40,890 nucleotides of DNA from Gammaproteobacteria bacterium (GTDB lineage: Bacteria > Pseudomonadota > Gammaproteobacteria > SZUA-152), in NCBI GenBank assembly GCA_022627515.1, contig JAKEGK010000004.1, positions 1 to 40,890 of the forward strand, given 5' to 3'. The notes below the pieces were generated by a model that did no database searches, was not told the origin of the DNA, and worked only from the letters and a program-made list of their open reading frames with translations. Shown here piece after piece: positions 10,599 through 30,229 of this stretch; position 1 is the stretch's first letter; each line of letters starts with the position of its first letter. Position numbers and translations under genes: made by a program.

Positions 10599-10707
10599 CG
10601 TAATTTGATGTGACTGGAAATCTATCAGCAGTTATTTCAATTCTACATACCGCCCATTTAGCGGGTTTGTTATGATAAGTCCCCTGTTTAATCTGCTGGA
10701 TAGACGT

Positions 10708-12413: not shown

Positions 12414-13418
12414 ATGAACCATAAACTTTTTACTAAATCTGCAATATGCGCTGGTATCGCCGGTGCGACACTGGTAGTTTCAAGTGCCGCCATGGCTGCG
12501 CCAGTGGGAGGTACGGGCACAGGTATCGGCCGCGCGATGACCAGTATCTTTGATTCGTACCACAACTTAGGATCTACCAATATCCGTCCAACCACACCCA
12601 ACGGTGGAACACCGCCTAACCACAGTAATGATACGGCGGAAATTTGTGTGTTCTGCCACACACCGCACGGTGGTGATAACAACGCGGCGGTGCCGATCTG
12701 GAACAGACGTTTGAGTGACCCGGCTACCTACACGCGTTATTCTTCATTAGGTACATCGACATTTGATGCAACTGAAGCGCCGGTTGGTTCTGTTACCATC
12801 GCGTGTTTGTCATGTCATGATGGCACTCAGGCAATTGACTCCGTTATCAATGCCCCGGGATCAGGTGGTTATAATCCAGCTGGTGCGCGCATCGGCACGA
12901 ACTTCGTCGGTGACGACCAGGTGAACGGCATGCTGCATCCTGATATCGTGCAGAACCTGGGTACCGATCTGTCGAATGACCACCCGGTTAGTATGCAGTA
13001 TGCTGGTGGTGGTATTAGCACGACGGCGGCAAACGGTCCATCGAATGACCCGGACTTCCCGGCAGGTTCCAATCCTAAGCTGCATCCGCAAGGCTTTACG
13101 TTGAACAACATGGCGGCGCCAGCTACTTCACCAATTACTACTCTTTGGTGGATAGAGCGTGGATCAGAATCGTTGGTTAATGGCAGCCGTGACCGAACCG
13201 ATGTGATTTTCTACACACGTCTGGAAGCGGAAACCGGCGTGGCGGGTGGCGAACAGCCGTTCGTGGAGTGTGGCTCATGTCATGATCCGCATAACGTTGA
13301 CAATCCGACGTTCTTACGCGTATCCAACGGTATCCCGGCGGCATTGGCAACTGATTTCCCCAATGCAATTAGTCCGAATCGTGGAAGCGCGCTTTGCCTG
13401 ACTTGTCACATTAAATAA
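12414..13418 (+). CDS. Secreted tetraheme cytochrome c
   Basis: This 334-residue protein has a clear signal peptide ending AAMA-AP near residue 28 and no lipobox. Four heme motifs are present: CVFCH at C78, CLSCH at C131, CGSCH at C286 and CLTCH at C328, the last ending only two residues before the C terminus. Candidate distal histidines are in SYHNLG, FCHTPHG, LSNDHPVS and SCHDPHN. Motifs and their spacing match the first four hemes of the undecaheme protein at 23003. A strong ribosome site (AGGCAGGGGG) precedes the start and a terminator follows, so it is its own unit. Size and heme number resemble OmcE-type filament cytochromes, but polymerisation is only an inference. Confidence 0.88.
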   Translation: MNHKLFTKSAICAGIAGATLVVSSAAMAAPVGGTGTGIGRAMTSIFDSYHNLGSTNIRPTTPNGGTPPNHSNDTAEICVFCHTPHGGDNNAAVPIWNRRLSDPATYTRYSSLGTSTFDATEAPVGSVTIACLSCHDGTQAIDSVINAPGSGGYNPAGARIGTNFVGDDQVNGMLHPDIVQNLGTDLSNDHPVSMQYAGGGISTTAANGPSNDPDFPAGSNPKLHPQGFTLNNMAAPATSPITTLWWIERGSESLVNGSRDRTDVIFYTRLEAETGVAGGEQPFVECGSCHDPHNVDNPTFLRVSNGIPAALATDFPNAISPNRGSALCLTCHIK

Positions 13419-13448
13419 CCAAGTCACGCAATTGTAAGGAGTACAGAA

Positions 13449-13492
13449 AACTGGCAGCTGAGCGAATCTTGCTTGGCTGCCAGTTTTTTTTT
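13449..13492 (+). terminator. Terminator of the tetraheme gene
   Basis: AACTGGCAGC (13449-13458) pairs with GCTGCCAGTT (13476-13485) in a 10-bp stem followed by a T-run to 13492. It ends the tetraheme unit before the isomerase gene. Confidence 0.92.
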
Positions 13493-13619: not shown

Positions 13620-14678
13620 ATGAACCATTCGAGGCAGCATTTCTTGTTGAGTAAAATTCTTCGTGCGGTTAGTTCGTTACACCGTGAGCCAAATCCAGTC
13701 GTTTTATTAATCTGTTTTGTAGTCATGTTTTTGACAACCATGGTTAAAGCGTCCGAGGGACTTTCAGACGGCGATTTTGCTTTGGTTAACGATGAAGTTA
13801 TTCCTGCCAGACAATATCTGGATGCGTTTCGAGAAGGGGTGCGTGAAACTTTTTATCACGGCAAAGTTACTGAAAAAGAACTGGACAATTTTCGGGACAC
13901 TGTGGCTCAAAAACTGGTTGATGAAACATTGTTAGTGCAGCAAGCGAAAAAGCTGGGGATCAAACCGGACCCGGACCAGGTGGCAAAGGAAATTGAGAAA
14001 GACACAGCCAGATATAGAAAACAGCAAAACTGGGAAAAAGGCAAGGATGCTATCATTGCATCTGTCAGGCCCAAAATAGAAATCAATAATACGATTGAAC
14101 AACTCAAGCAAAGAACTCAAAATGTTGCGGAACTTTCAGTAGCGGAAATAAGGAAGTATTATGAGCAGCATGCCGACCAGTTTACTGCACCCGAGAAATG
14201 GAATGTTTCGATTATTTTATTGAAGGTAGAACCGTCTTCGCCAAGCACAGCCTGGCAGGAAGCCTCCGAATTAGCCGAAGACCTGGTGCGCCGGTTAAGG
14301 GACGGTGAGAATTTCGAGGAATTAGCCCGCATTCACTCGGGTGATGAATCGGCGGTTGAGGGCGGCAACATGGGCTATATCCATACTGGTATGCTTTCCA
14401 GACCCGCGCAAGATGTGCTGAATACGATGGAACTGGGTCAAATTTCAGAGCCGGTGATGATTCTGCAGGGTGTCGCGATATTCAGATTGAATGGAATACA
14501 AGGCTCGAAACTGAACGAGTTTGATAACGTAAAAGACAGGGCGAAGGAATTGTTGCAGCGGAAACTGGGTGATGAAGCCTGGGAAAATCTGATTACAACC
14601 CTGCGTAAAAACGCCAAAATAGAAATCAACGATAAAGTAGTGAAGAGTGCGACCACGGGTCCACGTCCGCAAACATGA
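13620..14678 (+). CDS. Periplasmic peptidyl-prolyl isomerase, parvulin (PpiC/SurA) type
   Basis: This 352-residue protein has an N-terminal hydrophobic segment (VVLLICFVVMFLTTMVKA) that is a signal peptide or anchor. A SurA/PrsA-like helical chaperone region covers about residues 50-185. One parvulin domain lies at about 190-290, with FEELARIHSGDESAVEGGNMGYIHTGML as its core (in sequence: FEELARIHSGDES, then GGNMGYI). Such proteins fold outer-membrane or secreted proteins. Its place between the tetraheme and barrel genes suggests a dedicated folding helper. No clear ribosome site precedes the ATG; a 13-base dyad, TTGCAT-A-ATGCAA, lies at 13560-13572 upstream. Confidence 0.85.
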   Translation: MNHSRQHFLLSKILRAVSSLHREPNPVVLLICFVVMFLTTMVKASEGLSDGDFALVNDEVIPARQYLDAFREGVRETFYHGKVTEKELDNFRDTVAQKLVDETLLVQQAKKLGIKPDPDQVAKEIEKDTARYRKQQNWEKGKDAIIASVRPKIEINNTIEQLKQRTQNVAELSVAEIRKYYEQHADQFTAPEKWNVSIILLKVEPSSPSTAWQEASELAEDLVRRLRDGENFEELARIHSGDESAVEGGNMGYIHTGMLSRPAQDVLNTMELGQISEPVMILQGVAIFRLNGIQGSKLNEFDNVKDRAKELLQRKLGDEAWENLITTLRKNAKIEINDKVVKSATTGPRPQT

Positions 14679-15365: not shown

Positions 15366-17111
15366 ATGCCCGTCAAATCTAAAACAATACTAATTTCAAG
15401 GAAGCCGCTTGGGTGTTGGATATTCATCTTATCGTCATTGGTATTTTCTGATGTTTCTTTTGCAATACCTATGGTGCCCATGGCTTATAGCGGCAGCCTT
15501 GGATACACCTATAGTTATATAAAATCAGAAGATGCCGAATCAGAAAATTCATCTCTAACCGCTAATATCTCAGGCAGCGGATTTATCTGGCAGCCCTGGT
15601 TTGTTACGCTTGGTGTAGGATTGAGTATCGGTATTGCGGACGCAAATTCCAGTACCGGTGGCAGTAGCACGTCCACGACGACAGGTTCCGGTAATATACA
15701 GTTTACCGTTTTTCCTCAAAGCCGCTTCCCATTTGTGATGTCGTTAAGCCGGACTGATAGCCGATTGGAAAACACCGGCGCTACATTCAGCGCCGATGAT
15801 TACTACGTGAATTACCGTATATTTATGAGTCAGACATACTACGCTGTAAGTGGCAGTGTAGCGCGGTTTTCCTATGATCATAATGCATTTGAATCGGAAC
15901 GCTCGGATTCCAGCAGCGACAGCGTAAGCGCAAGTTACCGGGCGAAAAAAAGGCGTCAGAGTTACAGCGTGAATGCAAATTACTCCACCTCTGAACGTTC
16001 AAATTCATCTTTAAAACCCAATACTTCACTCCTGGAATTTCAACATGATTATTCATCAGGGCCGGATATGAGCGTTTCATCGCTGGCCAGTTACACACGT
16101 AATGACTCCGGCGCCGATGGAGACATGGGTATTTTTCAAAATGCGCAAGCCAACAGCACTTTCTCCTGGCGTCCCATCGACCGCCCTTATACGCTTTCCG
16201 GTGGAGCCCGAATTGCCACGTCGGAAAGCGGCACAGGCGCCGAGAGCAATAGCCTGGCCACGAATATCGGCGCAAGTTACCGCGTAACCCGGTCGTTAAG
16301 AGTGCTGGCCCTGGCTTCAGTTAGCGCTACCGAAGCTGATTCAACGCAATCAGTGAACAGCGCGCAGAGTGTAAGCGCGAGTTTCTCGTCACAACAATAT
16401 TTTGTGGGTAGATTCAGCTGGAACTGGAGCAGTTCCGCCGGCGTTAATAATTCCTATACGACTATCGATGACGAAAGTGAAAGTGTGCAAAATGTCGCTG
16501 GCAGCCTCGGACAGACATTGAATCGCAGTTGGTCCGTGGGACGGACATCCAGTATGAATCTGGCGTTTTCACAAAACGGCAGTGCGAGTAAAAGTACCGA
16601 TATCGACGAACCTGTCTACGGACTAGGGCATGGCGTGAGTATGGGCTGGAGCCGCCACGGCATTAGCGCCAGCACTTTTTCATCGGTAACTGTTTCGGAT
16701 ACCCGTACTTTCGGTGATACCGAAACGAGTTTTCAGCAATTGACCGGACAACTCACGCAGCGCAATGCCTTGTCGCGTGTCAGCGCATTGTCAGCAAATG
16801 TCACTTTCCAGGCCAGTCAGCAGGAAATATCGCAAACTGAATCACCCAGTCAACCGAAAACACTCGCTGCTAATATAACATACACAAACGCTCGAACTTT
16901 TGGTATTTATCCGTTAAGATTTAGCGCCAAGTTGTCTTACAATAGGCGATTCGAAGACGATCAGGTAAGTGGGTCGGAAACGTTGGAGTCAGAGAATCGT
17001 TTTGATTATCGAATTGGATTACTGACTACTAACGCGACTTTTCGTATAATGACCACGGAAGGGGGAACAACATCGGAATCACTGACGTTTTCAATTACTC
17101 GATCATTTTAA
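15366..17111 (+). CDS. Large outer-membrane beta-barrel protein
   Basis: The product is about 581 residues from the ATG at 15366. A signal peptide (CWIFILSSLVFSDVSFA) is followed by chain rich in serine, threonine and aromatic residues in alternating beta-strand pattern to the end. The last strand ends SLTFSITRSF, with the terminal phenylalanine of outer-membrane barrels. The strands suggest a barrel of roughly 24 or more. A TTG start at 15279 has a better ribosome site (GGGGGTG) but adds 29 residues ahead of the signal. There is no CXXC near the mature N terminus as in MtrB. Triheme cytochrome genes follow directly, so a pore housing a heme chain is likely by context. Other PEP-CTERM-associated barrels look similar. 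Confidence 0.75.
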   Translation: MPVKSKTILISRKPLGCWIFILSSLVFSDVSFAIPMVPMAYSGSLGYTYSYIKSEDAESENSSLTANISGSGFIWQPWFVTLGVGLSIGIADANSSTGGSSTSTTTGSGNIQFTVFPQSRFPFVMSLSRTDSRLENTGATFSADDYYVNYRIFMSQTYYAVSGSVARFSYDHNAFESERSDSSSDSVSASYRAKKRRQSYSVNANYSTSERSNSSLKPNTSLLEFQHDYSSGPDMSVSSLASYTRNDSGADGDMGIFQNAQANSTFSWRPIDRPYTLSGGARIATSESGTGAESNSLATNIGASYRVTRSLRVLALASVSATEADSTQSVNSAQSVSASFSSQQYFVGRFSWNWSSSAGVNNSYTTIDDESESVQNVAGSLGQTLNRSWSVGRTSSMNLAFSQNGSASKSTDIDEPVYGLGHGVSMGWSRHGISASTFSSVTVSDTRTFGDTETSFQQLTGQLTQRNALSRVSALSANVTFQASQQEISQTESPSQPKTLAANITYTNARTFGIYPLRFSAKLSYNRRFEDDQVSGSETLESENRFDYRIGLLTTNATFRIMTTEGGTTSESLTFSITRSF

Positions 17112-17204
17112 GGCCGTGTAGTATAGTTCGGACTTCGAAACCAAAATATAACCAGAAATCGCGGAAAAAATAGATTGACGATAACAAGTAGGGAGGAGGG
17201 CTCT

Positions 17205-17621
17205 ATGTTCAGATCCGCACTTATAGGGCTGCTCGGCGTAGTTGCAGTACTTTTAATGCCGCAATTGGCAAAGGCAGAATACGCTGATGTAGTGATTAAT
17301 AATTATGCAGACGCCGCTGGAATGCGACCCGTGGTGTTTCCGCATTGGTATCATCGAATTCGTTTTCGTTGCAAGGTTTGTCATGCCGATTTAGGTTTTG
17401 AATTCAAAGCCGGCGGCAATAAAATCACCATGGCGAAAATTATCGATGGCCAGTTCTGCGGAGCTTGCCACAATGGCGAGATTTCATGGTCTGTAGAGAA
17501 CTGTGGTATGTGCCATTCAGGCGTTCCAGGTACGCCAACATCCATTCATGGCAGTACCGTTCAACGTCTCGTTGCGCCGACCTATAAAGCGCTTGAAGAT
17601 AAAGAAAAAGTGCAAAAATAA
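17205..17621 (+). CDS. Periplasmic triheme cytochrome c (c7-like) 1
   Basis: This 138-residue protein has a signal peptide (ALIGLLGVVAVLLMPQLAKA) and three heme motifs: CKVCH, CGACH and CGMCH. The core pattern is VVFPHWYH, then the first heme, ITMAKIIDGQFCGACH and a last heme. The same pattern recurs in the trihemes at 17643 and 20266, and it fits c7-type triheme domains with bis-histidine ligation. The ATG at 17205 has an excellent ribosome site (GGGAGGAGGG). The gene lies 93 bases after the barrel gene and 21 before the next triheme, so the three form one unit. Its likely job is electron transfer through the periplasm or barrel. Confidence 0.88.
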   Translation: MFRSALIGLLGVVAVLLMPQLAKAEYADVVINNYADAAGMRPVVFPHWYHRIRFRCKVCHADLGFEFKAGGNKITMAKIIDGQFCGACHNGEISWSVENCGMCHSGVPGTPTSIHGSTVQRLVAPTYKALEDKEKVQK

Positions 17622-17642: not shown

Positions 17643-18296
17643 ATGATTATGAAGAAATATTTGCTTATCATAATGGCGCTCCTCCTGGCTGTTATGTATA
17701 TGGGGACGGTAGCAACTGCTGCTGAAAAAGAGGAAGCGAAAAAAGCCTCGGTAAGTTCGGCGAACGTTTTCAACCGTTTATTGAAAAAAGAAAAGACCAA
17801 GAATGCGGCGCCAGCTGATGATGGCATTCATGATGTCGCCAACGATGGCACGCACGTATTGCAGCCACCATTGATTGCTTATGAAGGACTCCCATCGAGT
17901 GATTTTGGCAACTACGTTGACTGGGTAAAATCGCTTAATGCTGGTATGCTGAAACCGCGCTACGACCGATTCGATCCCAAAGTTGAACCGTTGGTAATGG
18001 ATCTTGATATCGTTCGGGAAGTAAAAGCATCCGTACCTGATGTGGTATTTCCCCACAAACCTCACACGCAGTGGTTGCATTGCTCAAATTGTCATCCAAA
18101 GATCTTCATACCTCAACGAAATGCCAACGTAATTAACATGTCGGCCATTTTGTTGGGCCAGAAGTGCGGGGTCTGCCATGGCAAGGTTTCTTTTCCGATA
18201 ACAACAAAATCATGCAAAATGTGCCATTCAAAAGAGAAACCAAAAGACTGGAAACCACCTCAAAGTGAAGCGAGCCTGAAAACACCGTGGCGTTAA
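17643..18296 (+). CDS. Periplasmic triheme cytochrome c (c7-like) 2
   Basis: This 217-residue protein has a signal peptide (KYLLIIMALLLAVMYMGT, then VATA) and an N-terminal region of about 110 residues with the GIHDVANDGTHVLQPP and YVDWVKSLNAGML motifs. A triheme domain follows with CSNCH, CGVCH and CKMCH. VVFPHKPHTQW before the first heme supplies likely distal histidines. It is a clear paralog of the protein at 20266, which has the same N-terminal region. A terminator at 18370 ends the unit. The N-terminal region is probably a docking part; I know of no assigned function. Confidence 0.88.
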   Translation: MIMKKYLLIIMALLLAVMYMGTVATAAEKEEAKKASVSSANVFNRLLKKEKTKNAAPADDGIHDVANDGTHVLQPPLIAYEGLPSSDFGNYVDWVKSLNAGMLKPRYDRFDPKVEPLVMDLDIVREVKASVPDVVFPHKPHTQWLHCSNCHPKIFIPQRNANVINMSAILLGQKCGVCHGKVSFPITTKSCKMCHSKEKPKDWKPPQSEASLKTPWR

Positions 18297-18369: not shown

Positions 18370-18407
18370 ACGGCGCGTGGTTGCTTTTCTAGCTGCGCGC
18401 CGTTTTT
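18370..18407 (+). terminator. Terminator between triheme and cupredoxin units
   Basis: ACGGCGCG (18370-18377) pairs with CGCGCCGT (18396-18403), followed by five T. It splits the cytochrome cluster into two transcription units, barrel-triheme-triheme and the next five genes. Confidence 0.85.
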
Positions 18408-18520: not shown

Positions 18521-20173
18521 ATGAATACCTTGTCTAAAAAATTATCAAATGCATTTTTGGTGTATTTGTTCATATCAGTCAGCGTTGCGGGATGTAGTTC
18601 GACCGGGGAAAAAGAAACCGGGGACGCTGCGCAATTAAGCGAAGCCGCTGCCCAGGCTGAAACAGCGAAGGCTTCAGAACAGGAAGCGGCGGCCGGGAAA
18701 AAAGAGGCGGCGCAACCGGTGCATGAAACAAAAGAGGAGCCGGTCGTTGAAGTTATTCCCAGCCAGACTGGCAAAGCTACCGAATTGACTGTGGAGCCAA
18801 TTGCCGCTCCGGAACCCGTGCCTGCGGAAATGCAGCCTCAATCGTCGACAGCGAAGACCGAAACAACCCCATCAGACCAGGAGACCGCCAAAGAAAGCCC
18901 CGCAACACATGCGGAACAACTTTCCGGACAAAAAGCCGCAATTCCCGTACCCGTATCGACCGGACCGGATCACTTTGTGATTACTGCCGCCATTAAAGAT
19001 CAACAACACCCGCACTTTGGCAAGGGACATCAGATGGGATTTCTGGTAAACAATGAACCGGGAAAAGAAATAGTTTTGCAACGCGGCAAAACTTACCGCA
19101 TTGATGTGGCGACAGATCCCATGCACGATGTTTATATTTCGTTAAAAGAAATCGGTTGGGGCAGCACTCCTTACACGGAAGGTGTAGATGGAATGTATAC
19201 CTACGATGGGACTATCACCATAAAACCGGATGAAAAGACACCCGATTTGTTGTTTTATTCTTGCCGCAATCATCCCTATATGGGTGGAAAAATACATATT
19301 GTGAATCCTGGTCAGACAGCGGAAGTTGCAAAAAAATCAGCAACTGATGTTGTGCCTGCTGTAGCGGCACAGCAGCAGCAAGTCGCTAAAGCGGACGTAA
19401 GTCAGAAGCTCATGTTTGCCGACCTGCTGTTAAAATCGAAAAACAGTGAAGCGGTTCTGAAAAGCAATAGCAGTGAAGCGATCGCGCTTCATAAAAAAGC
19501 CGAATCCGAATTGCGGTCAGCAAAAGACAACCTGGCAGTCGGCAAAAATGCAGAGGCCTATCAACAAGCTGAAAATGCCATTGCCATGCTGAAGAAAGCC
19601 ACCAACCTTGTTCCAAGTGAAAGCGATATGGAGCATCTGAAGGAGCGAAACAAGGAACTGCTGGTATCTATTAAAGGTTTTGAAGATTCACACAAGGAAA
19701 ATTACGAAAGGACCGCAAAAAAGCAGGGGAAAGACGCCGCGGTTGATTATGACAAGCATAAAGTGGAAAAACTAAAAGCATCTGCGGAAGAATTGTCTAA
19801 AAAAGGCGACTACGTGAAAGCCAACCATGATCTGGAGGAAGCGCAACGCATAATTACGGTCGCGCTGCACAAAATGCTAAACAGCCAGACGATTGTTTAT
19901 GATTTGAATTTCGAAACACCGCAAGAAGAGTATGACTATGAATTGCGCCGATTCAAGGGTTATGAAGAATTGGTTCCAATCGCGGTTGAACAGAACAAAC
20001 CTGCCGAAGGCGCTTTAAAGTTGATGGAGTCATTTGTTAAAAAAGGCCAGGATTTACGCGATCGCGCCATAAAAGCCGCCAAAGATGGCGATTATCCAAC
20101 AGCCATTGCGATGCTTCAGGATGCTACCGATGATGTGCGCCGGGGATTACGTATGATAGGTGTAATGCAGTAG
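18521..20173 (+). CDS. Lipoprotein with a cupredoxin-like copper domain and helical C terminus
   Basis: This 550-residue protein begins with a lipoprotein signal whose lipobox VAGC puts the lipidated cysteine at C25. A low-complexity Ala/Glu/Pro/Lys linker runs to about residue 145. A cupredoxin-like domain covers about 150-263, with candidate type 1 copper ligands H202 (DPMHDVY), C248, H251 and M254 (SCRNHPYMGG). The remainder is helical, charged and TPR- or coiled-coil-like, with repeats such as SEAIALHKKAESELRSAK and AEAYQQAENAIAMLKKA. No CXXCH motif is present. The start at 18521 gives the lipoprotein signal; the frame is open further upstream. It leads the five-gene unit ending in the undecaheme gene, so electron carriage or scaffolding is likely. 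Confidence 0.82.
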   Translation: MNTLSKKLSNAFLVYLFISVSVAGCSSTGEKETGDAAQLSEAAAQAETAKASEQEAAAGKKEAAQPVHETKEEPVVEVIPSQTGKATELTVEPIAAPEPVPAEMQPQSSTAKTETTPSDQETAKESPATHAEQLSGQKAAIPVPVSTGPDHFVITAAIKDQQHPHFGKGHQMGFLVNNEPGKEIVLQRGKTYRIDVATDPMHDVYISLKEIGWGSTPYTEGVDGMYTYDGTITIKPDEKTPDLLFYSCRNHPYMGGKIHIVNPGQTAEVAKKSATDVVPAVAAQQQQVAKADVSQKLMFADLLLKSKNSEAVLKSNSSEAIALHKKAESELRSAKDNLAVGKNAEAYQQAENAIAMLKKATNLVPSESDMEHLKERNKELLVSIKGFEDSHKENYERTAKKQGKDAAVDYDKHKVEKLKASAEELSKKGDYVKANHDLEEAQRIITVALHKMLNSQTIVYDLNFETPQEEYDYELRRFKGYEELVPIAVEQNKPAEGALKLMESFVKKGQDLRDRAIKAAKDGDYPTAIAMLQDATDDVRRGLRMIGVMQ

Positions 20174-20265
20174 ACGGTTGGAATTCTCTGACTATAGAAT
20201 CACGATTGAACCCGTATTGTCAGGCCGGAATTAACCACTTAACTGAAAAACAGGATACGGTTGTA

Positions 20266-20853
20266 ATGCATAGTAAATTGATTTCTGGTAATAAAAGGAA
20301 TTGGTGCGTGTACGCTGGTACGTTGAGTGTCCTGCTTATGCTAAGCATCGGTTTCAGTTCGGTCGTAGCCGAAGAAGGGGGCGGCCATTTCCAATTACAT
20401 GCCGATGTGGTTCCGATTGAGAAGGACGGAATTCATGATCCGCTCAATGACGCGGTAAAGACCTTGCAGCCGCCGGCGGCCGCCATGAAAGAGTTTCCAC
20501 GCGACGGGCGTGGGATTATAAACTGGGTCGAAACCTTGAATAGCGGCATGATCGCACCGCGTACCGGTTTAACCGGTGACGAAAAAATGCATTCGGTGGA
20601 TTTCGACGTGATTTTTAAAAACACCGCATCCATGCCGTATGTCAGATTTCCGCACTTGCCACACACTCAATGGCTTACCTGCAAGAACTGTCATCCGGCC
20701 ATATTCCTCCCGCAACGCGGTGGCAATTTTGTTACCATGGCAGCCATCATTGAAGGCGAATATTGTGGAGTTTGCCACGGTAAAGTTGCGTTTCCTCCCC
20801 TGGAGTGTAATCGATGCCACAGTGTCTCGCGCGAAAGCGTCGGTTTGCGTTAG
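20266..20853 (+). CDS. Periplasmic triheme cytochrome c (c7-like) 3
   Basis: This protein of about 195 residues is a paralog of the triheme at 17643. It shares DGIHDPLNDAVKTLQPP, the NWVETLNSGMIAPR segment and a triheme domain with CKNCH, CGVCH and CNRCH behind VRFPHLPHTQW. A signal peptide lies at the N terminus (LSVLLMLSIGFSSVVAEE). I prefer the ATG at 20266; a TTG at 20206 would add 20 residues before the signal. Its end overlaps the next gene by 40 bases, so the two are translated in close coupling. It likely passes electrons in the periplasm to or from the undecaheme protein made from the same unit. Confidence 0.88.
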   Translation: MHSKLISGNKRNWCVYAGTLSVLLMLSIGFSSVVAEEGGGHFQLHADVVPIEKDGIHDPLNDAVKTLQPPAAAMKEFPRDGRGIINWVETLNSGMIAPRTGLTGDEKMHSVDFDVIFKNTASMPYVRFPHLPHTQWLTCKNCHPAIFLPQRGGNFVTMAAIIEGEYCGVCHGKVAFPPLECNRCHSVSRESVGLR

Positions 20854-21878
20854 TCATTCTGATTTTACTTACCAGCGTTATTGAACTTGGCTGTTCGATG
20901 GCTGAGTTGGAACGTATTGCCACGGAAAACAAACTTGAAGATCTTAAGTCAGAATCGTCGGGTGGCGCCCTTGCGAAATCGCGGTTTCTGGTTTTTGACT
21001 CCGTGATTAAAGGGGGTATGCAAGAGGAAGAAGGTCTGACAGGCGCTTTCAGGCGCATAATGATTGGCCCTGATCAGGAGATTCAGTTTCTTACACCGGT
21101 TGCTGTGGGGGGTGTTGACAATTATCTCTATGTGGTCGATTCCGGCTTGCGCATCGTATTTCGTTATGACTTTATCAATAACACAATCGAACCCATTGGC
21201 AATGTCGGGGCCCAGTTTGCCGGGGAAATGGGAAGAATTTATGTTGCGCGGGACCGGAGCTTTTATGTTGTCGATCCTACGGGCAGACAGGTTTTGCATT
21301 TCGATGAACAGGGGATGGTTACACAGACTTTTCAGGATCTGGCCAACCTGTCGCGGCCAATAGATATTATCTACGACGAAACGACGAATGACCTGCTCGT
21401 GGCCGATGGTTCTTACAGCCACATAGTTGTATTCAATCAAGCCGGCAGAGCGGTACGCACCATCGGTCAGCGCGGTACAGGACCAGGGCGGTTTCGCGCG
21501 ATGACGGCAATGACCATGGGCGATGACGGCCTTTATGTTTTAGACCGGCTTGAGTTACCGGTGCAGGTGTTAACTATCAATGGAGATTACAAATATTCCT
21601 TCGGGGAATCGCATCATACATTCCCCAGCGCCATCGCGGTAAATGACGATGGTGTAGTGTATGTGGCTGACAAATCGGACAATACAATCCGCATTTATCA
21701 GGACGCGGAACTGTTGTCCGTATTCGGCGGAACTGGCTCGGCTCCCGGCCGTTTTCGGGAAATAACCAGTATGTGGATTAATAATGATTTATTGTATGTT
21801 GCCGATAGTATGAACCGGCGTGTGCAAGTGTTGCGAATGACTTCCGAGGAACCGGCGCCGGCGGTATTAACCCAATGA
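20814..21878 (+). CDS. NHL-repeat beta-propeller lipoprotein 2
   Basis: This 354-residue protein has a lipobox-like ending in its signal (VIELGCS). The mature chain starts with a short helix (AELERIATENKLEDLKSES) and continues as an NHL-type propeller. Blades include YLYVVDSGLRIVFRYD, DLLVADGSYSHIVVFNQ, GTGPGRFRAMTAMTM and LLYVADSMNRRVQVL. It lacks the WP.PPEIPR segment of the other two NHL lipoproteins. The gene overlaps the triheme gene upstream by 40 bases and the next NHL gene by four (ATGA). A scaffold or assembly role around the cytochromes is inferred from this tight coupling; no catalytic motif is seen. Confidence 0.83.
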   Translation: MPQCLARKRRFALVILILLTSVIELGCSMAELERIATENKLEDLKSESSGGALAKSRFLVFDSVIKGGMQEEEGLTGAFRRIMIGPDQEIQFLTPVAVGGVDNYLYVVDSGLRIVFRYDFINNTIEPIGNVGAQFAGEMGRIYVARDRSFYVVDPTGRQVLHFDEQGMVTQTFQDLANLSRPIDIIYDETTNDLLVADGSYSHIVVFNQAGRAVRTIGQRGTGPGRFRAMTAMTMGDDGLYVLDRLELPVQVLTINGDYKYSFGESHHTFPSAIAVNDDGVVYVADKSDNTIRIYQDAELLSVFGGTGSAPGRFREITSMWINNDLLYVADSMNRRVQVLRMTSEEPAPAVLTQ

Positions 21879-22990
21879 AGCAGCCTATTGTTATAGACAT
21901 AAAACATCTCCTCCATTTCTTGCTTGTGTTGGTCCTGCTGTTTGTTTCCGCCTGCGCCAGCAGAGAATATCGCATGGATTATGAGGTGAAAGAATCCGAT
22001 GCGAAAGTCTGGCCATCTCCTCCGGAAATACCCCGCGTCCGTTATGTGGGCACGCTGACCGGCGAGCAAAATGTTAAACCCGTGGATGAAGGAATAAGTT
22101 TCGGGGCCTATATCACCGATTTCTTTAAATGGGTAGCGGGAATTGTTGGTCAAAATCCCATTCCCCTGGTGTTGCAGCGGCCGCAATCCGGTGTGATAGA
22201 TGAAAACGGCAGGATGTTTGTTACAGATGTGAGCCGTCATTCGATCATGGTATTCGATTTGCAAAAAGGAACGTTAAGCGAATGGATTTTGGCCACACCA
22301 AACACCGGCTTTGTGACCCCCGTTGGAATTGCGCTTGGTCCCGGTGGTACTCTCTTAGTTGTTGACGCTGATCTGAAGCTTGTTGTGCAACTCGATGCGA
22401 CGGGGAAGCCCATCAAAACGTTTGGTGAAGACAAATTCAAACGCCCAACCGGCATTGTCCGGGATCCATTGAAAGGCAAAATTTATGTTGCTGACACCCA
22501 TGCGCATGACATAAAAGTTTTTGATGACGCTGGTGGTTTAATTAATATTATTGGTGAACGAGGTACTGATGGCGGTGAGTTTAATGGGCCTACCCACCTT
22601 TCATTTGCTAACGGAATGCTCTATGTAACCGATACATTCAATACACGTGTACAGGTTTTGTCAGATTCTGGCGATTTTAAACGCGAATTTGGGAAAAGAG
22701 GATTGTTTGTCGGAAATCTTGTCAGGCCCAAAGGTGTCACAACGGATAGCGAAGGAAATATATACGTCATTGAGTCATTTCACGATCATTTGCTAATATA
22801 TAATTCTAACGGGGAATTTTTGTTGCCCATTGGCGGTACGGGCGCGGAGGTCGGACAGTTTTATTTGCCCTCAGGGGTTTGGGTGGATAAGAACGACCGT
22901 ATATATATTGCGGATATGTTCAACGGGCGGGTTGTCATACTGCAATACCTGGGCGGACAATACGCTCGTCGGGCACTTCAAAAAAATTAG
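21875..22990 (+). CDS. NHL-repeat beta-propeller lipoprotein 3
   Basis: This 371-residue protein has a lipoprotein signal (LLFVSACAS). The mature N terminus KVWPSPPEIPRVRYVGTL matches WPKPPEIPRYVYEGTL in the protein at 10708, so the two are paralogs. The propeller has blades such as IYVADTHAHDIKVFDD, MLYVTDTFNTRVQVLSD and IYIADMFNGRVVILQ. It ends 12 bases before the undecaheme start and overlaps the preceding gene by ATGA. The order lipoprotein, lipoprotein, undecaheme cytochrome suggests that the propellers hold the secreted cytochrome at the membrane. That role is inferred. Confidence 0.85.
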   Translation: MKQPIVIDIKHLLHFLLVLVLLFVSACASREYRMDYEVKESDAKVWPSPPEIPRVRYVGTLTGEQNVKPVDEGISFGAYITDFFKWVAGIVGQNPIPLVLQRPQSGVIDENGRMFVTDVSRHSIMVFDLQKGTLSEWILATPNTGFVTPVGIALGPGGTLLVVDADLKLVVQLDATGKPIKTFGEDKFKRPTGIVRDPLKGKIYVADTHAHDIKVFDDAGGLINIIGERGTDGGEFNGPTHLSFANGMLYVTDTFNTRVQVLSDSGDFKREFGKRGLFVGNLVRPKGVTTDSEGNIYVIESFHDHLLIYNSNGEFLLPIGGTGAEVGQFYLPSGVWVDKNDRIYIADMFNGRVVILQYLGGQYARRALQKN

Positions 22991-23002
22991 TACAGGGTGA
23001 GC

Positions 23003-25804
23003 ATGCGAGTTAATAGCGTTGTAATGACGGGGGCTGTCGGGGTTGTCGTGCTATTACTATGGCACGCTGATGTTTTTGCTGGCCGCACGGCTGATATTCA
23101 AAATACCAAACATAATTTTTCCGCATCGCCTTTATATCCTGATACCTTGCCTACAGGGCAACAACGCGTTGTCCAGGCAACACAGGAAGAACAAATCTGC
23201 GTCTTTTGTCACACGCCTCATGCGGCGGATACTTCCGTCGGCCCGTTATGGAATCGGCAACTATCCGACGCCAACTATCAAACCTATGTGAGCGGTTCAC
23301 TGGATTCAGGACGTCCCGGATTGAATCCAAATATTGCCGCGCAACCGCTGCAGCAACCCAATGGCGTGTCCAAGCTTTGTTTATCGTGCCATGATGGAAC
23401 CATGGCAATAGGAGCGGTTAATGTACTCTGGGGAACGTTCACAGACCGGGATGGTTCCACGGCTGAAATAGCAATGCAAGGCACGGGGCCTGGCGGTACG
23501 ATGCCAGTCGGAGAAGGCGCGCGAACGGGTTTTACCCGGAATTTAGGCACCAATTTGACTAACGACCATCCGATATCCGTGCGGTTTGATGCCAACCTGG
23601 CAGCTTTAGATGGAGAAATGCGTTACCCGAACACTGTGGATGACATCATTGTGCGCAGCGTTGATCCATGGCCTGCCAATCAAGGCCTTCGTACACGTAC
23701 TGAGTATATCCACCTGGAACCCGATCCTGGCACTACCACTGGTGGTTTGGTGCAATGTAACAGTTGTCACGATCCGCATATCCGCAGCACCGACCCGACA
23801 GAGAATATCAAGTTTTTGCGTTTGAACCGTTTTCAGAAAATACGGCCGCAGGAAGGTCAATTCAATGCGGCTAACGACATTATATGTCTGGCGTGCCATG
23901 ATAAAGCGGGTTGGGTTAATTCCGCGCACGCCAATCCCGATGTCGCGGATGAGGTTTACACCACAGCCGCGGCGCAGGTCAGGGAATTCCCTCTCGGTAC
24001 TCAAGTATGGGAAACCGCCTGTCTGACATGCCATGATACGCACTCGGTCCAGGGTTCAAAACGATTGCTTCGTGAAGGTGTTGATGGCGGTGTGGTTGTA
24101 TCGGCATCCGGTTATCGCATTAAAACGGGAGATGGGCAACCAGCCGTAGAGGAAACCTGTTATGCGTGCCACTCCGCGGATGGTGGCACATTGGCAAATC
24201 AGGGTGGCGCGAATTACGAAGTGCCGGACACCAAGACGGATTTTACTATCATGCGTACGCATATGCCTATTTCCGCCAGTGATCAGGCAGCCGGCCAGGA
24301 AATGCATGATATCGGATCACCCAATCCGGATGTAGCGGATCCTACGGGTCTTGGAAAAGACTTCATTGAAAATCCGACGCTCATGGGCCGTGGTAACCTC
24401 AACAACCGTCACGCCGAGTGTACTGATTGCCATAATCCTCACCGGGTCATCAAGAACCGGCAATTCAATATGGATCCGTTTGTTCCTGAACCGGAAGGAA
24501 CCCATAATCACGCGCAACCGCATAACAACCTGGCATCCGGCGTGTTAAAAGGCATCTGGGGTGTGGAACCCGTATACGGTTCAACGGCGTTTATGTCCAT
24601 ACCCGTCAGCTTTGATGTAAAACGCGGTGATCCAGGCATTGGCGCAAGCACCGCCATCAATGCGACTTATGTAACACGCGAATATCAGGTTTGCTTTAAA
24701 TGTCATTCGAATTATGGTTTTAGTGACAACAACAACAATTACGGCACGACGCCGCAAAGGCCGCGCCTGGGTTCACATGCGGGCAGTACCGCGCCCGGAA
24801 CCAACGGTCTGGATACTTATACCAATATCGCGATGGAGTATCAGTCGCCATCTGATCATGCAGGCGAGGGAACATCGGGTTCTCCTACAGGAGCTGCCCC
24901 GGCCTACGCCGCGAATAACCATCGGTCCTGGCATCCGGTAATGCGGGAAACTGGCCGGACCAGCGCTGTCCGTGGTGGGGCAAACCCGGCAAACTGGCGT
25001 GTACCCTTCCAGACTATCGGCGCGCAAACCATGTATTGTACCGATTGCCATGGCTCTGATACCGACACCGGGCCGGATGGCGTACTGCCGCGTCCCAAGG
25101 CTGGCAATCCCCGTGAAGACGGTTTCCCATGGGGTCCACATGGTTCGGATAACGATTTTGTCCTGAAAGGTCAGTGGAGCGGCAACCGCCTTACCGACAC
25201 CGACGGCACGGGTAATCTTGGCACAGGTGATGCGGGTTCCGAAAATCACTTGTGCTTTAAATGCCATGAATACAACCAATATGGCAACGCCGGGCTTGGC
25301 GGTGGCATGGGTGGTGGCGGTGGCGGCGGTATGGGCGGCGGCGGAGGTGGTGGCGCAGGCGGCGTACAAAACAGCGGATTTGCCACGCCGGGCTGCGGTG
25401 GCGGATGTATGGGCGGTCCGATTAATAATTTGCACGTTTATCACACAGGTGTGGTGTCAACCTGGCGCTGTAATTTGTGCCACGTGGCTATACCGCACGG
25501 ATGGAAAAACAAGGTGTTCCTGGTGAACCTGAACGATGTTGGTCCGGAAGGTAATGAAGCCCCGGGAACGCAATTGCGCAATGGCGCGGGGGGCGGTGGT
25601 GGCATGGGTGGCGGTGGCGGTGCCACGGCGCCTGCGTTTACCCGTGGCCCATACTACAATCGTGCGGCATTAAAAGTGGTCAGTTTTGCAATCAGTGGTC
25701 AGTGGGTTCCAGCCAATTGCGGGTCTGCCGGCCCGCCGGGAAATGGTGCAACAGGGGTTAACTGGATGTTCATGAGCAGTGAGGCGTGTAATAACTTGCC
25801 GTAA
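23003..25804 (+). CDS. Secreted undecaheme cytochrome c
   Basis: This 933-residue protein has a signal peptide ending near DVFA-G and no lipobox. Eleven CXXCH motifs are present, with first cysteines at 66, 126, 252, 295, 340, 386, 473, 564, 679, 751 and 823. The first four align with the tetraheme protein at 12414, including QICVFCHTPH, KLCLSCHDGT, NDHPIS and SCHDPH. Seven more hemes follow. Two glycine/methionine-rich runs flank a CGGGCMGG element, at about 764-787 and 861-873. The ATG at 23003 has AGGGTGAG before it; a GTG at 22997 is in frame. It probably acts at or outside the outer membrane. The protein recalls the undecaheme cytochrome proposed for Ca. Tenderia electrophaga, not checked. 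Confidence 0.9.
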   Translation: MRVNSVVMTGAVGVVVLLLWHADVFAGRTADIQNTKHNFSASPLYPDTLPTGQQRVVQATQEEQICVFCHTPHAADTSVGPLWNRQLSDANYQTYVSGSLDSGRPGLNPNIAAQPLQQPNGVSKLCLSCHDGTMAIGAVNVLWGTFTDRDGSTAEIAMQGTGPGGTMPVGEGARTGFTRNLGTNLTNDHPISVRFDANLAALDGEMRYPNTVDDIIVRSVDPWPANQGLRTRTEYIHLEPDPGTTTGGLVQCNSCHDPHIRSTDPTENIKFLRLNRFQKIRPQEGQFNAANDIICLACHDKAGWVNSAHANPDVADEVYTTAAAQVREFPLGTQVWETACLTCHDTHSVQGSKRLLREGVDGGVVVSASGYRIKTGDGQPAVEETCYACHSADGGTLANQGGANYEVPDTKTDFTIMRTHMPISASDQAAGQEMHDIGSPNPDVADPTGLGKDFIENPTLMGRGNLNNRHAECTDCHNPHRVIKNRQFNMDPFVPEPEGTHNHAQPHNNLASGVLKGIWGVEPVYGSTAFMSIPVSFDVKRGDPGIGASTAINATYVTREYQVCFKCHSNYGFSDNNNNYGTTPQRPRLGSHAGSTAPGTNGLDTYTNIAMEYQSPSDHAGEGTSGSPTGAAPAYAANNHRSWHPVMRETGRTSAVRGGANPANWRVPFQTIGAQTMYCTDCHGSDTDTGPDGVLPRPKAGNPREDGFPWGPHGSDNDFVLKGQWSGNRLTDTDGTGNLGTGDAGSENHLCFKCHEYNQYGNAGLGGGMGGGGGGGMGGGGGGGAGGVQNSGFATPGCGGGCMGGPINNLHVYHTGVVSTWRCNLCHVAIPHGWKNKVFLVNLNDVGPEGNEAPGTQLRNGAGGGGGMGGGGGATAPAFTRGPYYNRAALKVVSFAISGQWVPANCGSAGPPGNGATGVNWMFMSSEACNNLP

Positions 25805-26017: not shown

Positions 26018-28201
26018 ATGTTTTTTAATGCTCCTGAAAAGTGCGCGCACAGCGTGCTTGGACTGGTTTTTTTGTTAACGGCCGTGAGCGCGAATGCCGG
26101 CGTGCCGCGTTTTGCTTATGTGGCCAACCCCTACGACTATACTATCTCCACTTTTTTTCTTGATGAAGACGGCAGGATGTTCCCCAATGGTATGGTGTAT
26201 ACCAGGGATAAGTTTCCCGCAGCATTAATTATACATCCGAACGGGAAGTTTCTTTATGGCGCAACCCGCACTGTGGATACGGCGCCAATCTACAAAATAG
26301 ATCCAACGACAGGCTGGCTGACAGAAGCCACAGGATCGCATTTTAATACCCGCTTGCGTTCACCGTTTTCATTCGGGTTTCATCCTTCGGGAAAGTTCCT
26401 TTATGTTGCAGGCCGTGGTGGCGGTGTCGCGGGATTCCAGGTTAATGAAGAAACCGGCGAACTCGATTATGTGCCGGGTTCGCCATTTAAAGCCGGTGAC
26501 CGAACCCGATGTTTAACAGTACATCCATCGGGTAAGTTTGTGTACGCATCCAACGCGTATTCCAATGATGTTTCAGCATACCGTATTGATCAATCCACAG
26601 GGACGTTATCCGAGTTGGCTAAGTCGCCATTCCCCGGCGGCGAGGCCTGGCCATCGGATGATACCTATGCAAAGCTGCCTGATGTAATTGAGGGCAAAGG
26701 CGGCATGCCATACTACATTACGTCGCATCCGTCCGGTAAATTCGTTTATGTCACTAACTGGGCATCCGCCAGCGTGTCGGTATTCAACGTCAATGAATCT
26801 ACAGGCGATCTGACCCTGGTTGGTGTGCCAAAAGAAACGGGACTGACGCCCTACGCTGTTGCGGTACATCCATCCGGGAAATATGTGTTCGTGAGCACGT
26901 GGGGCGGGAATGATATCTATGTCTATACGGTTGATCCGCGAACGGGTGAGCTTGAACATATCGAAGGTTCACCCTTTGGCACCTTGGGTATAAAACCGGT
27001 TGATATCAATTTCAATAGCGATGGAACTATGGCATTTGTCGCCAATAACGGATCCAATAATGTTTCGATTTTTGATGTGGATGTCGGTACCGGCAGATTA
27101 ACGCTTAAAGATCTTGCTATGACCCGGGCTGGTTCCATTGATGCGGCGCTGGTAAAAGTGGAACAGCCGGTCAGGTTAGAACCCAACTATGCGTTTGTCA
27201 TTGATAATGCCTCCGGTTCATTAATCAGTTACCGGGTTGATACTGCTACAGGCGATTTGACGGAAATGGCGCGCGCAAAGACCGGAAAACAGCCGGTCGC
27301 GGTTGCGCAGGATCCGCAGAACCGTTTTGTCTACGTGGCGAATGCCGGTTCCAGCAATGTATCCGCTTTTGCCATCAATAACAGTACTGGCGCCCTGACG
27401 GAAGTGGAAGGTTCGCCCTATGCAACCGGTGAAAATCCCGCTGCCATCAGCGTTGACGCTAACGGATGGTATCTGTATACACTGAACCACGGCAGCCAGG
27501 ATATGTCGGTGTTTTTGATTCATGTAAAAAAGGGACAGCTGGCGGAAGTGCAGGGATCACCCGTTCCCATTAAAAAACAGCCACAGAAATTGGCAACAGA
27601 TCCAACATCCCGGTTTGTGTATGTTAATGCCCGCGATGACAAATCCATCAATGTCTTTCGTTTTCGCCAGGCGATCACTCCATCCATATTTGAAATTTCA
27701 GACTATGGCTCGCCTTTTATATTTAACACGGATCCCAGTGACGTTGCCATTGATCCCACCGGCAGGTTTGCCCTCATTCTGCAAAGCGAAGCAAAGCAGA
27801 TATCCATGTTTTTTGTGCATGTGGCGACAGGGGCGTTAATTCCGATCCAGGAAAACCTGCAGCCTTACCCATTCAAGGGTGAAGGGGCTGTTAAAGCGAT
27901 ATTCCATCCCAACGGCAAGTTTGCTTACGTTCTGAATCGCGAGAGTAAAAATATAATCCAGTTACAGGTTGAAAGGCTCAACGGTCTATTAAGTGAAATT
28001 GCGGAACCGCTTGCAACCAATGGCAAGCCGTTGTCATTTAACATTGATCCATCAGGCCGCTATCTTTATGTGGTAAACGAGAATGAAAAAGGCCTGGTTA
28101 AATACGGCATTGACAAATCGACAGGAAAGTTAACGAACCTTGGGGCAATTAAATTGCCTTATTCTCCCGCGGAGATGGCCATTTCGCGCGAGTTTAAATG
28201 A
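26018..28201 (+). CDS. Long YncE/lactonase-type beta-propeller, secreted
   Basis: This 727-residue protein has a signal peptide (VLGLVFLLTAVSANA) and mature start GVPRFAYVAN. It carries many copies of the repeat IHPSGKFVYVTN..SASVSVFNV..STGDLT, typical of 6-phosphogluconolactonase-like (Lactonase/YncE) propellers. The length allows two seven-bladed propellers. The break between them is near residue 375, at EPNYAFVIDN. It lies in a fresh unit between the undecaheme gene and resB. Enzyme activity is doubtful because such surface propellers are often binding proteins. Association with the cytochromes is inferred from position only. Confidence 0.85.
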   Translation: MFFNAPEKCAHSVLGLVFLLTAVSANAGVPRFAYVANPYDYTISTFFLDEDGRMFPNGMVYTRDKFPAALIIHPNGKFLYGATRTVDTAPIYKIDPTTGWLTEATGSHFNTRLRSPFSFGFHPSGKFLYVAGRGGGVAGFQVNEETGELDYVPGSPFKAGDRTRCLTVHPSGKFVYASNAYSNDVSAYRIDQSTGTLSELAKSPFPGGEAWPSDDTYAKLPDVIEGKGGMPYYITSHPSGKFVYVTNWASASVSVFNVNESTGDLTLVGVPKETGLTPYAVAVHPSGKYVFVSTWGGNDIYVYTVDPRTGELEHIEGSPFGTLGIKPVDINFNSDGTMAFVANNGSNNVSIFDVDVGTGRLTLKDLAMTRAGSIDAALVKVEQPVRLEPNYAFVIDNASGSLISYRVDTATGDLTEMARAKTGKQPVAVAQDPQNRFVYVANAGSSNVSAFAINNSTGALTEVEGSPYATGENPAAISVDANGWYLYTLNHGSQDMSVFLIHVKKGQLAEVQGSPVPIKKQPQKLATDPTSRFVYVNARDDKSINVFRFRQAITPSIFEISDYGSPFIFNTDPSDVAIDPTGRFALILQSEAKQISMFFVHVATGALIPIQENLQPYPFKGEGAVKAIFHPNGKFAYVLNRESKNIIQLQVERLNGLLSEIAEPLATNGKPLSFNIDPSGRYLYVVNENEKGLVKYGIDKSTGKLTNLGAIKLPYSPAEMAISREFK

Positions 28202-28286
28202 TATTGATCCTGCCAAAGACTGTAATGATGCCGGGCGGCGGCAGGTTTTGTATGAGCGTAACTCTAAATCCGGATACTTGCCGGGA

Positions 28287-29384
28287 ATGCTGAAACTAAT
28301 CAAAAAATTTTCATCGTTGAAAATCACCCTGGCTGGAATGGGATTGCTGGTTGTTGGCGCCATGCTTAGTTACGGCAATCCTCTGACTACGCCAATCTGG
28401 GTGTTGGTCGTGCCGATGGCTTTGCTGGCCGTTAACCTGATCGCCGCAATTATCACCAATGCCCGAATCAATCAGCAACCGGGATTGCTGGTTTTTCATG
28501 TGAGTTTATTGTTGATTTTGCTGCTTGCCACCATTGGCCGGCTGACCCACATGGATGCGCACCTGGAGCTGGTAGTGGGAACCGAATTTGAGCCTGGTAA
28601 ATTACTGGAAAGCAACTCCGGCCCCCTGCATGCTGGAGATATTGATAAAGTCCATTTTGTGCAAAGGCCTTTTAGCGTTGAATATGCGCCAGGTCTGCGG
28701 CGTGGTTTAACCCACAGTCATGTCAAAGTAAAAACCGCAAGCGGTGAATGGGAAGACCGGATTGTGGGTGACGACCGGCCGCTGGTAATTGAAGGCTATC
28801 GTTTTTATACAACCTTTAACAAAGGTTTCACGCCGGTACTAACCTGGATGCCAACGCAAGGTGAACCGATAACCGGTACTATCAATATGCCGTCTTATCC
28901 ATTATTTGAATATAAGCAGGACAACCGCTGGCATCCACCCGGCAGCGACACGGAAATCAAATTCTGGTTACAACTGAATACCGGTATGAAAGAAGAGAAT
29001 TACTGGGTATTGGATGGAAGAACCTCCACAGGGGTGTTGATTGTCACTACCGATGATGCACGTCATGAAGTTCAGCTCGGTAAGTCAGTGGATTTGCCCA
29101 ATGGCCGTTTGCGTTTTGACGGGTTGACCACCTGGATGGGGTATCGCCTGTTTTACGATCCTACCATTCAATGGTTATTTTTTGTTGCCATTATGGGTGT
29201 TTTGGGTTTAACGCAATATTTCTGGAAGAAAATTAATCTGCAACCGTGGATGGATGAAAAGCCTGATACAATCGTGGAAGACGGCGGGAAACCATCCGGC
29301 GGCATTGGCAGTCAAACCGGTCGTAAACCAGTAATGAGCGGTGATCCAGCATCGTCCGCGTATTTGACGGGGGATAGACAATGA
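28287..29384 (+). CDS. resB: ResB-like cytochrome c biogenesis protein
   Basis: ResB (Ccs1) works with ResC/CcsA in System II to bring heme to apocytochromes at the outer face of the inner membrane. The product of about 365 residues is shorter than Bacillus ResB. It starts with SLKITLAGMGLLVVGAML, has membrane segments at about 10-30, 37-57 and 68-85 and a large periplasmic domain. A last membrane segment lies near 295-310 (WLFFVAIMGVLGLTQYFW). The ATG at 28287 is chosen because the upstream frame is charged and lacks homology; the ribosome site is poor. The stop overlaps resC by ATGA. Finding it next to a full Ccm set is unusual. Confidence 0.8.
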   Translation: MLKLIKKFSSLKITLAGMGLLVVGAMLSYGNPLTTPIWVLVVPMALLAVNLIAAIITNARINQQPGLLVFHVSLLLILLLATIGRLTHMDAHLELVVGTEFEPGKLLESNSGPLHAGDIDKVHFVQRPFSVEYAPGLRRGLTHSHVKVKTASGEWEDRIVGDDRPLVIEGYRFYTTFNKGFTPVLTWMPTQGEPITGTINMPSYPLFEYKQDNRWHPPGSDTEIKFWLQLNTGMKEENYWVLDGRTSTGVLIVTTDDARHEVQLGKSVDLPNGRLRFDGLTTWMGYRLFYDPTIQWLFFVAIMGVLGLTQYFWKKINLQPWMDEKPDTIVEDGGKPSGGIGSQTGRKPVMSGDPASSAYLTGDRQ

Positions 29385-30229
29385 ATAACCTGGTTGCAGA
29401 AGTGCCCTGGTTATGGTCCGGTTTAGGCGCCTATTTCGCGGCGACCCTGGTGGCAATTTGGGGCGTTGTTCCCCGCTTTGCCGGCATGCCTGTTATAAAA
29501 ACCCACCGCCATGAGTACCTCGTGCTGGCGTTTCTGATTCTCGGGGTGGCGTTGCTGGCAGTGGCCATTACCGAGCGGTGGATTCGCATCGGCCACGGAC
29601 CGTGGATAAGCCTGTTCGAATTATTGATGAGTCAGTTGTGGAGTCTGGGGTTGATATTCCTTTTGCTGTATTGGCGTTTGCCGGGCCTAAGACCCAGCGC
29701 GGTGATCGTGTTGCCGGTGATGTGGGTGCTCGGCACCTGGGTATTGACGCTGGAACCGGCCGCCAGCCACTTTCCCGCAACTTATTACAATTCCTGGAAG
29801 TGGGTGCACGTGGGTCTGGGTAAAATGTTTCTGGCTTTGTTGCTGGCTGGTGTCGGCCTGGCGGGCGTACTGATACTACGCCAGACCCGGCGGGGTAAAA
29901 CCTGGTTCAAGAGTATGCCATCGGATGTAATAGTCGACCGGCTCGCGTGGCGCTTCATGATGCTGGCCCTGGTGTTTGACAGCCTGATGCTGATTGCCGG
30001 CGCGGTGTGGGCGCAGGATGCATGGGGCCGCTACTGGGCCTGGGATCCTTTAGAGACATCGGCGTTTCTCACCTGGCTGTTTCTGGCCATTGGACTACAC
30101 ATCAGATTGAGTTATCGCATACCGCCTGTAATCAGTGGCCTGATGATCATCGGCGTTTTTGTTATGGCGTTCGCAACATATTTTGGCACACCTTATATCA
30201 GTCCAGCGGCTCACAAAGGGATGGTATAA
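29381..30229 (+). CDS. resC: ResC/CcsA-type heme-handling protein
   Basis: This 282-residue multi-pass protein presents heme for attachment to cytochromes in System II. It has the tryptophan-rich WWD-type motif WGRYWAWDPLETSAF near residues 208-222. Likely heme-ligand histidines sit in IGHGPW, WVHVGLG and GLHIRL. It resembles CcsA more than CcmC, in which the motif reads WDARLTSEL as in the copy at 33116. It overlaps resB by four bases and clearly forms one transcript with it. About eight membrane segments are visible. Confidence 0.85.
   Translation: MNNLVAEVPWLWSGLGAYFAATLVAIWGVVPRFAGMPVIKTHRHEYLVLAFLILGVALLAVAITERWIRIGHGPWISLFELLMSQLWSLGLIFLLLYWRLPGLRPSAVIVLPVMWVLGTWVLTLEPAASHFPATYYNSWKWVHVGLGKMFLALLLAGVGLAGVLILRQTRRGKTWFKSMPSDVIVDRLAWRFMMLALVFDSLMLIAGAVWAQDAWGRYWAWDPLETSAFLTWLFLAIGLHIRLSYRIPPVISGLMIIGVFVMAFATYFGTPYISPAAHKGMV

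Follow-up and report, generated by a model that had tools for sequence, protein, structure and literature searches.

The uet cluster, for undecaheme electron transfer, has been described from the cathode-oxidising Tenderiales (Eddie 2022, as reported in PMC10734462) and is also known from Gallionella (Eddie 2022, as reported in PMC10734462; PMC12575090). It is written uetABCDEFGHIJ (PMC12575090), and its products have been assigned as a tetraheme cytochrome (UetA), an isomerase (UetB), a porin (UetC), triheme cytochromes (UetD, UetE, and UetG), NHL proteins (UetH and UetI), and an undecaheme cytochrome (UetJ) (PMC10734462). In Ca. Tenderia electrophaga, the triheme genes rank with the top genes by expression at the cathode (PMC5371394). 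In published work, the system is read as a complex of porin and multiheme cytochromes, with the tetraheme outside the cell and UetJ as a putative iron oxidase (PMC10734462, PMC13386937).

Two further points of reference come from the cytochrome nanowires of Geobacter. In the filament formed by OmcE, one heme reportedly receives a histidine ligand from the subunit next to it (PMC9473688). The omcS companion (osc) cluster serves here as the second point. Its products include a prolyl isomerase, OscH, and a beta-propeller, OscD. The nanowire gene lies there, much as uetA does in the uet cluster, beside genes for folding, secretion, and morphology and beside that of a large multiheme cytochrome, GSU2495, with 26 hemes (PMC13194489, PMC12977616); the likeness is one of gene content, and osc is of the OmcS type, not of the OmcE type.

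Gene content of the locus

The window, as the whole stretch of DNA analysed is called here, comprises 40,890 nucleotides of contig JAKEGK010000004.1 from a gammaproteobacterium, and all of its features mentioned below lie on the + strand. The content and order of its genes A to J on one strand match the published description of Uet (PMC10734462, PMC5371394). On this basis, we identify the locus with the published Uet cluster, the tetraheme being UetA and the undecaheme UetJ; the locus and its two cytochromes belong to a system already known. Compared by published descriptions, no difference from the Uet of Tenderiales was found in the gene set: the same ten genes stand in the same order, position F being taken by a TPR protein in the published cluster and by a predicted lipoprotein here. 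The locus tags of Tenderia fit this order (Tel_16515, Tel_16520, and Tel_16530 for the trihemes, Tel_16525 for the TPR protein, and Tel_16545 for the undecaheme).

A gene for a further NHL lipoprotein (10672..11871) is located directly upstream of uetA (12414..13418). The cluster continues with genes for a PPIC/SurA-type prolyl isomerase (uetB, 13620..14678), an outer-membrane beta-barrel (uetC, 15366..17111), and two triheme c7 cytochromes (uetD, 17175..17621, with its ATG probably at 17205, and uetE, 17643..18296). The longest open reading frame at the uetF position runs from 18437 and has no match in Pfam or NCBIfam. The TTG listed as its start is probably too early; the ATG at 18521 opens a lipoprotein-type signal (VAGC), and uetF is taken here as 18521..20173, encoding a predicted lipoprotein. 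A third triheme c7 gene (uetG, 20206..20853, ATG probably at 20266) is followed by genes for an NHL beta-propeller protein (uetH, 20814..21878) and for an NHL beta-propeller with a lipobox (uetI, 21875..22990). The position of uetI directly upstream of the undecaheme gene is also seen in Rhodocyclaceae and Motiliproteus. A cultured carrier of UetJ is Motiliproteus sediminis HS6. Downstream of uetJ (23003..25804) lie a gene for a lactonase-type beta-propeller (26018..28201) and ResB-like and cytochrome c assembly genes (28140..30229), the latter being kept at this place in many relatives. The propeller gene is duplicated together with uetJ in several relatives; in loci L007 to L011 this tandem duplication results in two undecahemes per locus. 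Searches against PHROGs and Rfam gave no match.

Downstream of uetA lies a strong intrinsic-terminator-like hairpin that includes a T run (13438..13492; -30.8 kcal/mol and z = -7.2 in the window); it is present at the same place in three relatives. A second hairpin of this type is located between uetE and uetF (18370..18407), as it also is in L103 and L104. The relatives with terminator-like hairpins are L103, L104, and L028. By prediction, these hairpins divide the cluster into several transcripts, the levels of which may be unequal, and the predicted terminator after uetA fits an excess of uetA over uetJ, as for an abundant filament subunit.

The tetraheme UetA and the OmcE family

The 334-residue product of uetA, with the first cysteines of its hemes at positions 78, 131, 286, and 328, ends at CLTCHIK. 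A profile built from 20 tetrahemes matched OmcE of Geobacter sulfurreducens (7TFS) with E = 6.4e-37 over all four hemes. With E = 4.3e-37, and again over all four hemes, it matched entry 9YUQ, a "putative multiheme cytochrome c" with 16 chains in the entry, for which a literature search found no associated paper. Exactly eight histidines are invariant in the UetA family, namely the four in CXXCH, H50 near the N-terminus, and those of CHTPH, NDHP, and CHDPH; this is the number needed for four bis-His hemes. In all 20 aligned tetrahemes the chain ends at CxxCHxK, and the same holds for OmcE and 9YUQ. UetA and OmcE are thus homologous at the four hemes and have the eight ligand-pattern histidines and the C-terminal end in common, whereas the loops of UetA are longer (334 vs 232 residues). 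Judged by these profiles, UetA is a member of the family of the nanowire subunit OmcE and, by virtue of that membership, may polymerise into filaments, with the N-terminal histidine as the candidate cross-subunit ligand.

Other OmcE-like genes were also observed. The genome of the window contains a second UetA-like tetraheme (L099, G000:C108, 8298-9290) that is 74% identical, and no other uet gene was found in the 16 kb covered there. On a further contig of this genome (L100, G000:C67, 7669-10930), an NHL protein stands between two OmcE-like proteins that have five CXXCH apiece, near genes that by eye resemble those of hydrogenase subunits. OmcE-like tetraheme genes also occur on contigs of a viral collection (L006 and L082-L086).

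The head module of the undecaheme UetJ

The uetJ-like gene, named from gene order, reads from an ATG at 23003 (alternative GTG at 22997) to a stop at 25804 and encodes, as a preliminary description of this DNA had stated, a c-type cytochrome of 933 residues with 11 CXXCH. A signal peptide without lipobox was recognized by eye at the N-terminus. The first cysteines of the hemes are at positions 66, 126, 252, 295, 340, 386, 473, 564, 679, 751, and 823. The same description had claimed that the first four hemes of this protein correspond to those of the tetraheme. The motifs that it named for both proteins were all found, in identical order, and the heme intervals that it gave (60, 126, and 43 residues in the undecaheme against 53, 155, and 42 in the tetraheme) are exact by the first-cysteine positions. 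BLASTP, a shuffle test, and profile comparison agree that hemes I-IV of UetJ are a homologue of the tetraheme. In BLASTP, all four hemes of the tetraheme were aligned to hemes I-IV (92 bits, E = 2e-24), and the comparison of the tetraheme family with the undecaheme heads, profile against profile, gave 100% and E = 5.5e-53 over 216 columns. In the shuffle test (Smith-Waterman, 300 shuffles, with the CXXCH residues held fixed), the head scored 263 against 50 +/- 9 (z = 24), whereas only z = 0.35 was obtained for the extension (residues 303-933). The likeness is therefore real and stops at heme IV.

These values also bear on the simplest objection, namely that cytochromes with doubled CXXCH motifs resemble each other without any special kinship. 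Both proteins do match Paired_CXXCH and, weakly, DmsE-type models. The score of the head was obtained with the CXXCH residues kept, and the extension, although rich in CXXCH, did not rise above its shuffles to any comparable degree; together with the profile E value, this makes mere resemblance hardly credible, and the shuffle test refutes it.

The head module comprises residues 27-302 of UetJ (23081..23908) and includes hemes I-IV. Its ligand-pattern histidines are at positions 37, 70, 73, 130, 189, 256, 259, and 299. All eight are invariant in both the UetA family and the UetJ heads, the N-terminal one in NTKH included, while overall identity between head and UetA is about 30%. The head is likewise homologous to OmcE and has the same eight histidines, but UetJ runs on with seven more hemes. 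Of the papers that name UetJ, PMC10734462 and PMC13386937 say nothing of a UetA/OmcE module in this protein.

The seven-heme extension

Hemes V-XI are located in residues 303-933 (23909..25801). Comparison of this part with the tetraheme family by hhalign gave just short doubled-CXXCH matches. That the extension might contain a second OmcE module was considered because of heme V, whose CxxCHxxH lies approximately 31 residues after H309 and resembles a subunit start; as homology, this was rejected on the basis of the hhalign matches and the z value of the shuffle test. By these comparisons, the seven-heme extension is a separate addition, unrelated to the tetraheme. A search against the PDB gave nothing significant (best E = 0.07), and thus no solved relative. 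The AlphaFold2 model of UetJ, made with 24 homologues, had a mean pLDDT of 34 and a pTM of 0.23.

Conservation was followed in an alignment of 32 long forms of UetJ (identity 41-78%) together with four compact forms, which have 558-588 residues and 11 hemes. The extension of the compact forms is homologous to that of the long ones (profile comparison, 99.8%, E = 1.4e-29). All 11 CXXCH are present in 32/32 long forms, and 25 histidines are invariant in the 36 proteins: the 11 proximal ones, four more in the head, and ten more in the extension. One of them, H309 (36/36 long and compact forms), lies 10 residues past the proximal histidine of heme IV, immediately beyond the C-terminal stop point of the tetrahemes. 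Its invariance suggests that a ligand otherwise provided by a filament neighbour could come in cis on the heme IV side. The extension also contains a conserved cysteine pair, Cys906/Cys929, and Gly-rich loops. Gly-rich runs (GGGMGGGGGGG) are found at residues ~760-800 and ~860-875 and, in the compact forms, at the C-terminus.

As all ligands of the head are retained, UetJ itself might polymerise through its OmcE-like head, either alone or mixed with UetA. This is very improbable: the chain passes the point at which 20/20 aligned tetrahemes, OmcE, and 9YUQ end, and we know of no cytochrome filament subunit with such an extension. With some 630 residues and seven hemes after heme IV, UetJ is best regarded as a carrier of an OmcE-like module, not as an OmcE-type subunit.

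Origin of the shared module

An unrooted maximum-likelihood tree of the module was made with UetJ heads, compact heads, tetrahemes, OmcE, and 9YUQ. The UetJ heads form one clade (100/94) with the compact heads as sister (95/79), while OmcE, 9YUQ, and the UetA-type tetrahemes are on the opposite side (95/94); three of the branches, those of the two solved proteins and one more, are long, and their exact placement is unsure. The sharing of the module thus goes back to a single ancient event, older than the sampled families, and the protein was not formed in the genome of the window from its own tetraheme. The preliminary description had proposed that the large protein arose by joining a tetraheme to a seven-heme part. 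A homologous module and a separate extension agree with such a joining; a recent, local event does not fit heads that form one old clade. Joining a standalone tetraheme to the extension is the simpler direction, since standalone tetrahemes include OmcE and 9YUQ from elsewhere and the extended form has a single origin. The unrooted tree itself gives no direction, and the reverse, in which the small tetraheme would be a module released from the large protein, is the less simple option.

Co-occurrence of UetA and UetJ

The distribution of both proteins was determined in 398 genomes of the phylum, at least 90% complete and with other classes included, by a search with the profile of the long UetJ forms, in which two candidates per genome were scored, to which a tetraheme protein query was added. 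UetJ was present in 17 genomes and UetA in 16. Both were found in 16, UetA only in 0, UetJ only in 1, and neither in 381 (Fisher p ~1e-27, a value in which shared ancestry is ignored). The sole genome with UetJ only has a fragment at a contig edge. The two genes are 8.4-10.7 kb apart on the same strand, with uetA upstream, in 15 of the 16 genomes; in the other one the distance is 34 kb. In a separate sample of the class, read manually, at least 24 of 27 positive genomes have both genes when compact forms are included, and in 22 the genes are linked. Within the family of the window, the undecaheme query had a match in 23 of the 24 genomes searched, which would fit a placement in Tenderiaceae. 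Co-occurrence and linkage demonstrate a joint function but say nothing of physical docking.

The compact forms of UetJ are part of a second type of locus (L073, L075, L077, L101 in genome G144, and L102 in genome G010), in which the pair is linked at about 5 kb in the class sample. Such a locus encodes an OmcE-like tetraheme, an NHL protein, a barrel-like protein, an NHL protein, and the 558-588-residue 11-heme protein with its OmcE-like head; NHL genes are located near the tetraheme gene. The barrel-like proteins of L101 and L102 are of 632/703 residues and end in RRNF/ERRF, and 8- and 6/7-heme proteins are present in place of the trihemes. Genome G010 carries both locus types. Long and compact loci share two cytochromes, namely the tetraheme and the 11-heme protein, and each locus type also encodes NHL proteins and a barrel.

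The predicted barrel UetC

UetC was predicted as an outer-membrane barrel with 28 long strands and a terminal Phe, and its model has a pLDDT of 82. Many barrels matched the model in Foldseek. The best TM-score among the listed matches was that with MtrB of the Mtr complex (6r2q_B), 0.46/0.42, which is below the same-fold value of 0.5. A sequence search of the PDB with UetC gave no match. The Uet locus is like MtrCAB in that it combines a large outer-membrane barrel with multiheme cytochromes, and unlike it in the 28 predicted strands and missing PDB sequence match of UetC and in its undecaheme. Membership of UetJ in the DmsE/MtrA decaheme family was rejected, as its score of 45.7 bits is far under the curated cut-off of 192.2.

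The MtrB-like size of the barrel in the predicted model and the published view of Uet would both suit a conduit in which UetJ is the surface cytochrome of a porin-cytochrome complex, UetA acts as a small carrier, either soluble or at the surface, and the head module is an old domain reused for docking, with no polymer being formed. In addition, whether OmcE and OmcS function as filaments is a matter of dispute for Geobacter itself (PMC11077965, PMC13194489). We consider such an arrangement unlikely, as UetA retains the full ligand set of OmcE and its C-terminal stop point, and as the separate predicted terminator of uetA suggests an excess over UetJ.

UetJ as the proposed terminal unit of a UetA filament

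The reading preferred here is that UetA is a nanowire subunit of the OmcE family and UetJ its dedicated terminal partner, forming the root of the filament, to which we assign a probability of approximately 0.45. The UetA-like head of UetJ would take the place of one filament subunit. On one side it would provide the usual subunit interface; on the other, the next subunit would be replaced by the extension. Because the UetJ chain continues past heme IV, where filament-type subunits end, the polymer would grow from only one side of UetJ. UetA would polymerise onto hemes I-IV, to which the extension would link the barrel UetC and the periplasmic trihemes, and electrons would hop between the electrode or mineral and the envelope. 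Polymerisation of UetA, docking via the head, the terminal position of UetJ, a root over a tip, and the direction of electron flow are all elements that we infer. The earlier suggestion that the undecaheme could cap or seed a filament of tetrahemes is made plausible by the co-inheritance and linkage of the two genes, the conserved donor/acceptor histidines, and the predicted terminator after uetA. An identity of only ~30% between head and UetA counts against a terminal unit, since the contact residues may have diverged.

The main alternative to a root is the distal tip of the filament, where the head would dock on the outermost UetA and the extension would touch the electrode or mineral. The logic of docking is equal to that of the root, and an exposed, secreted end would be in keeping with the Gly-rich loops and conserved cysteine pair of the extension and with a signal peptide that has no lipobox. 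Possible tip proteins are mentioned, and left unconsidered, in the paper on OmcZ (PMC9473688). With UetJ at the tip, however, barrel and filament would not be connected by any cytochrome that long and compact loci share; where the long locus has trihemes, the compact locus has 6- to 8-heme proteins. A tip is thus rated as rather improbable, and UetJ as root is favoured because something must connect the barrel with the filament, and UetJ is the large cytochrome that is kept together with these two.

Implications for electron transfer by Uet

The anchoring of nanowires to the cell and the entry and exit of electrons have been named as key open challenges (PMC12307469). UetJ is a concrete candidate for this link: it carries the module of the subunit itself, is co-inherited with that subunit, and has its gene close to that of an outer-membrane barrel. 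A more far-reaching view, which is tentative and on balance somewhat unlikely, is that with UetJ an end piece of a cytochrome nanowire has been recognised for the first time, part subunit module and part conduit, which roots, polarises, and seeds the wire. If so, the Uet of electroautotrophs would be an OmcE-type nanowire machine, and the compact locus type would use the same principle. Should UetJ indeed be the link between filament and envelope, the Uet system of cathode- and iron-oxidising bacteria would be recast from a porin-cytochrome complex to a nanowire system.
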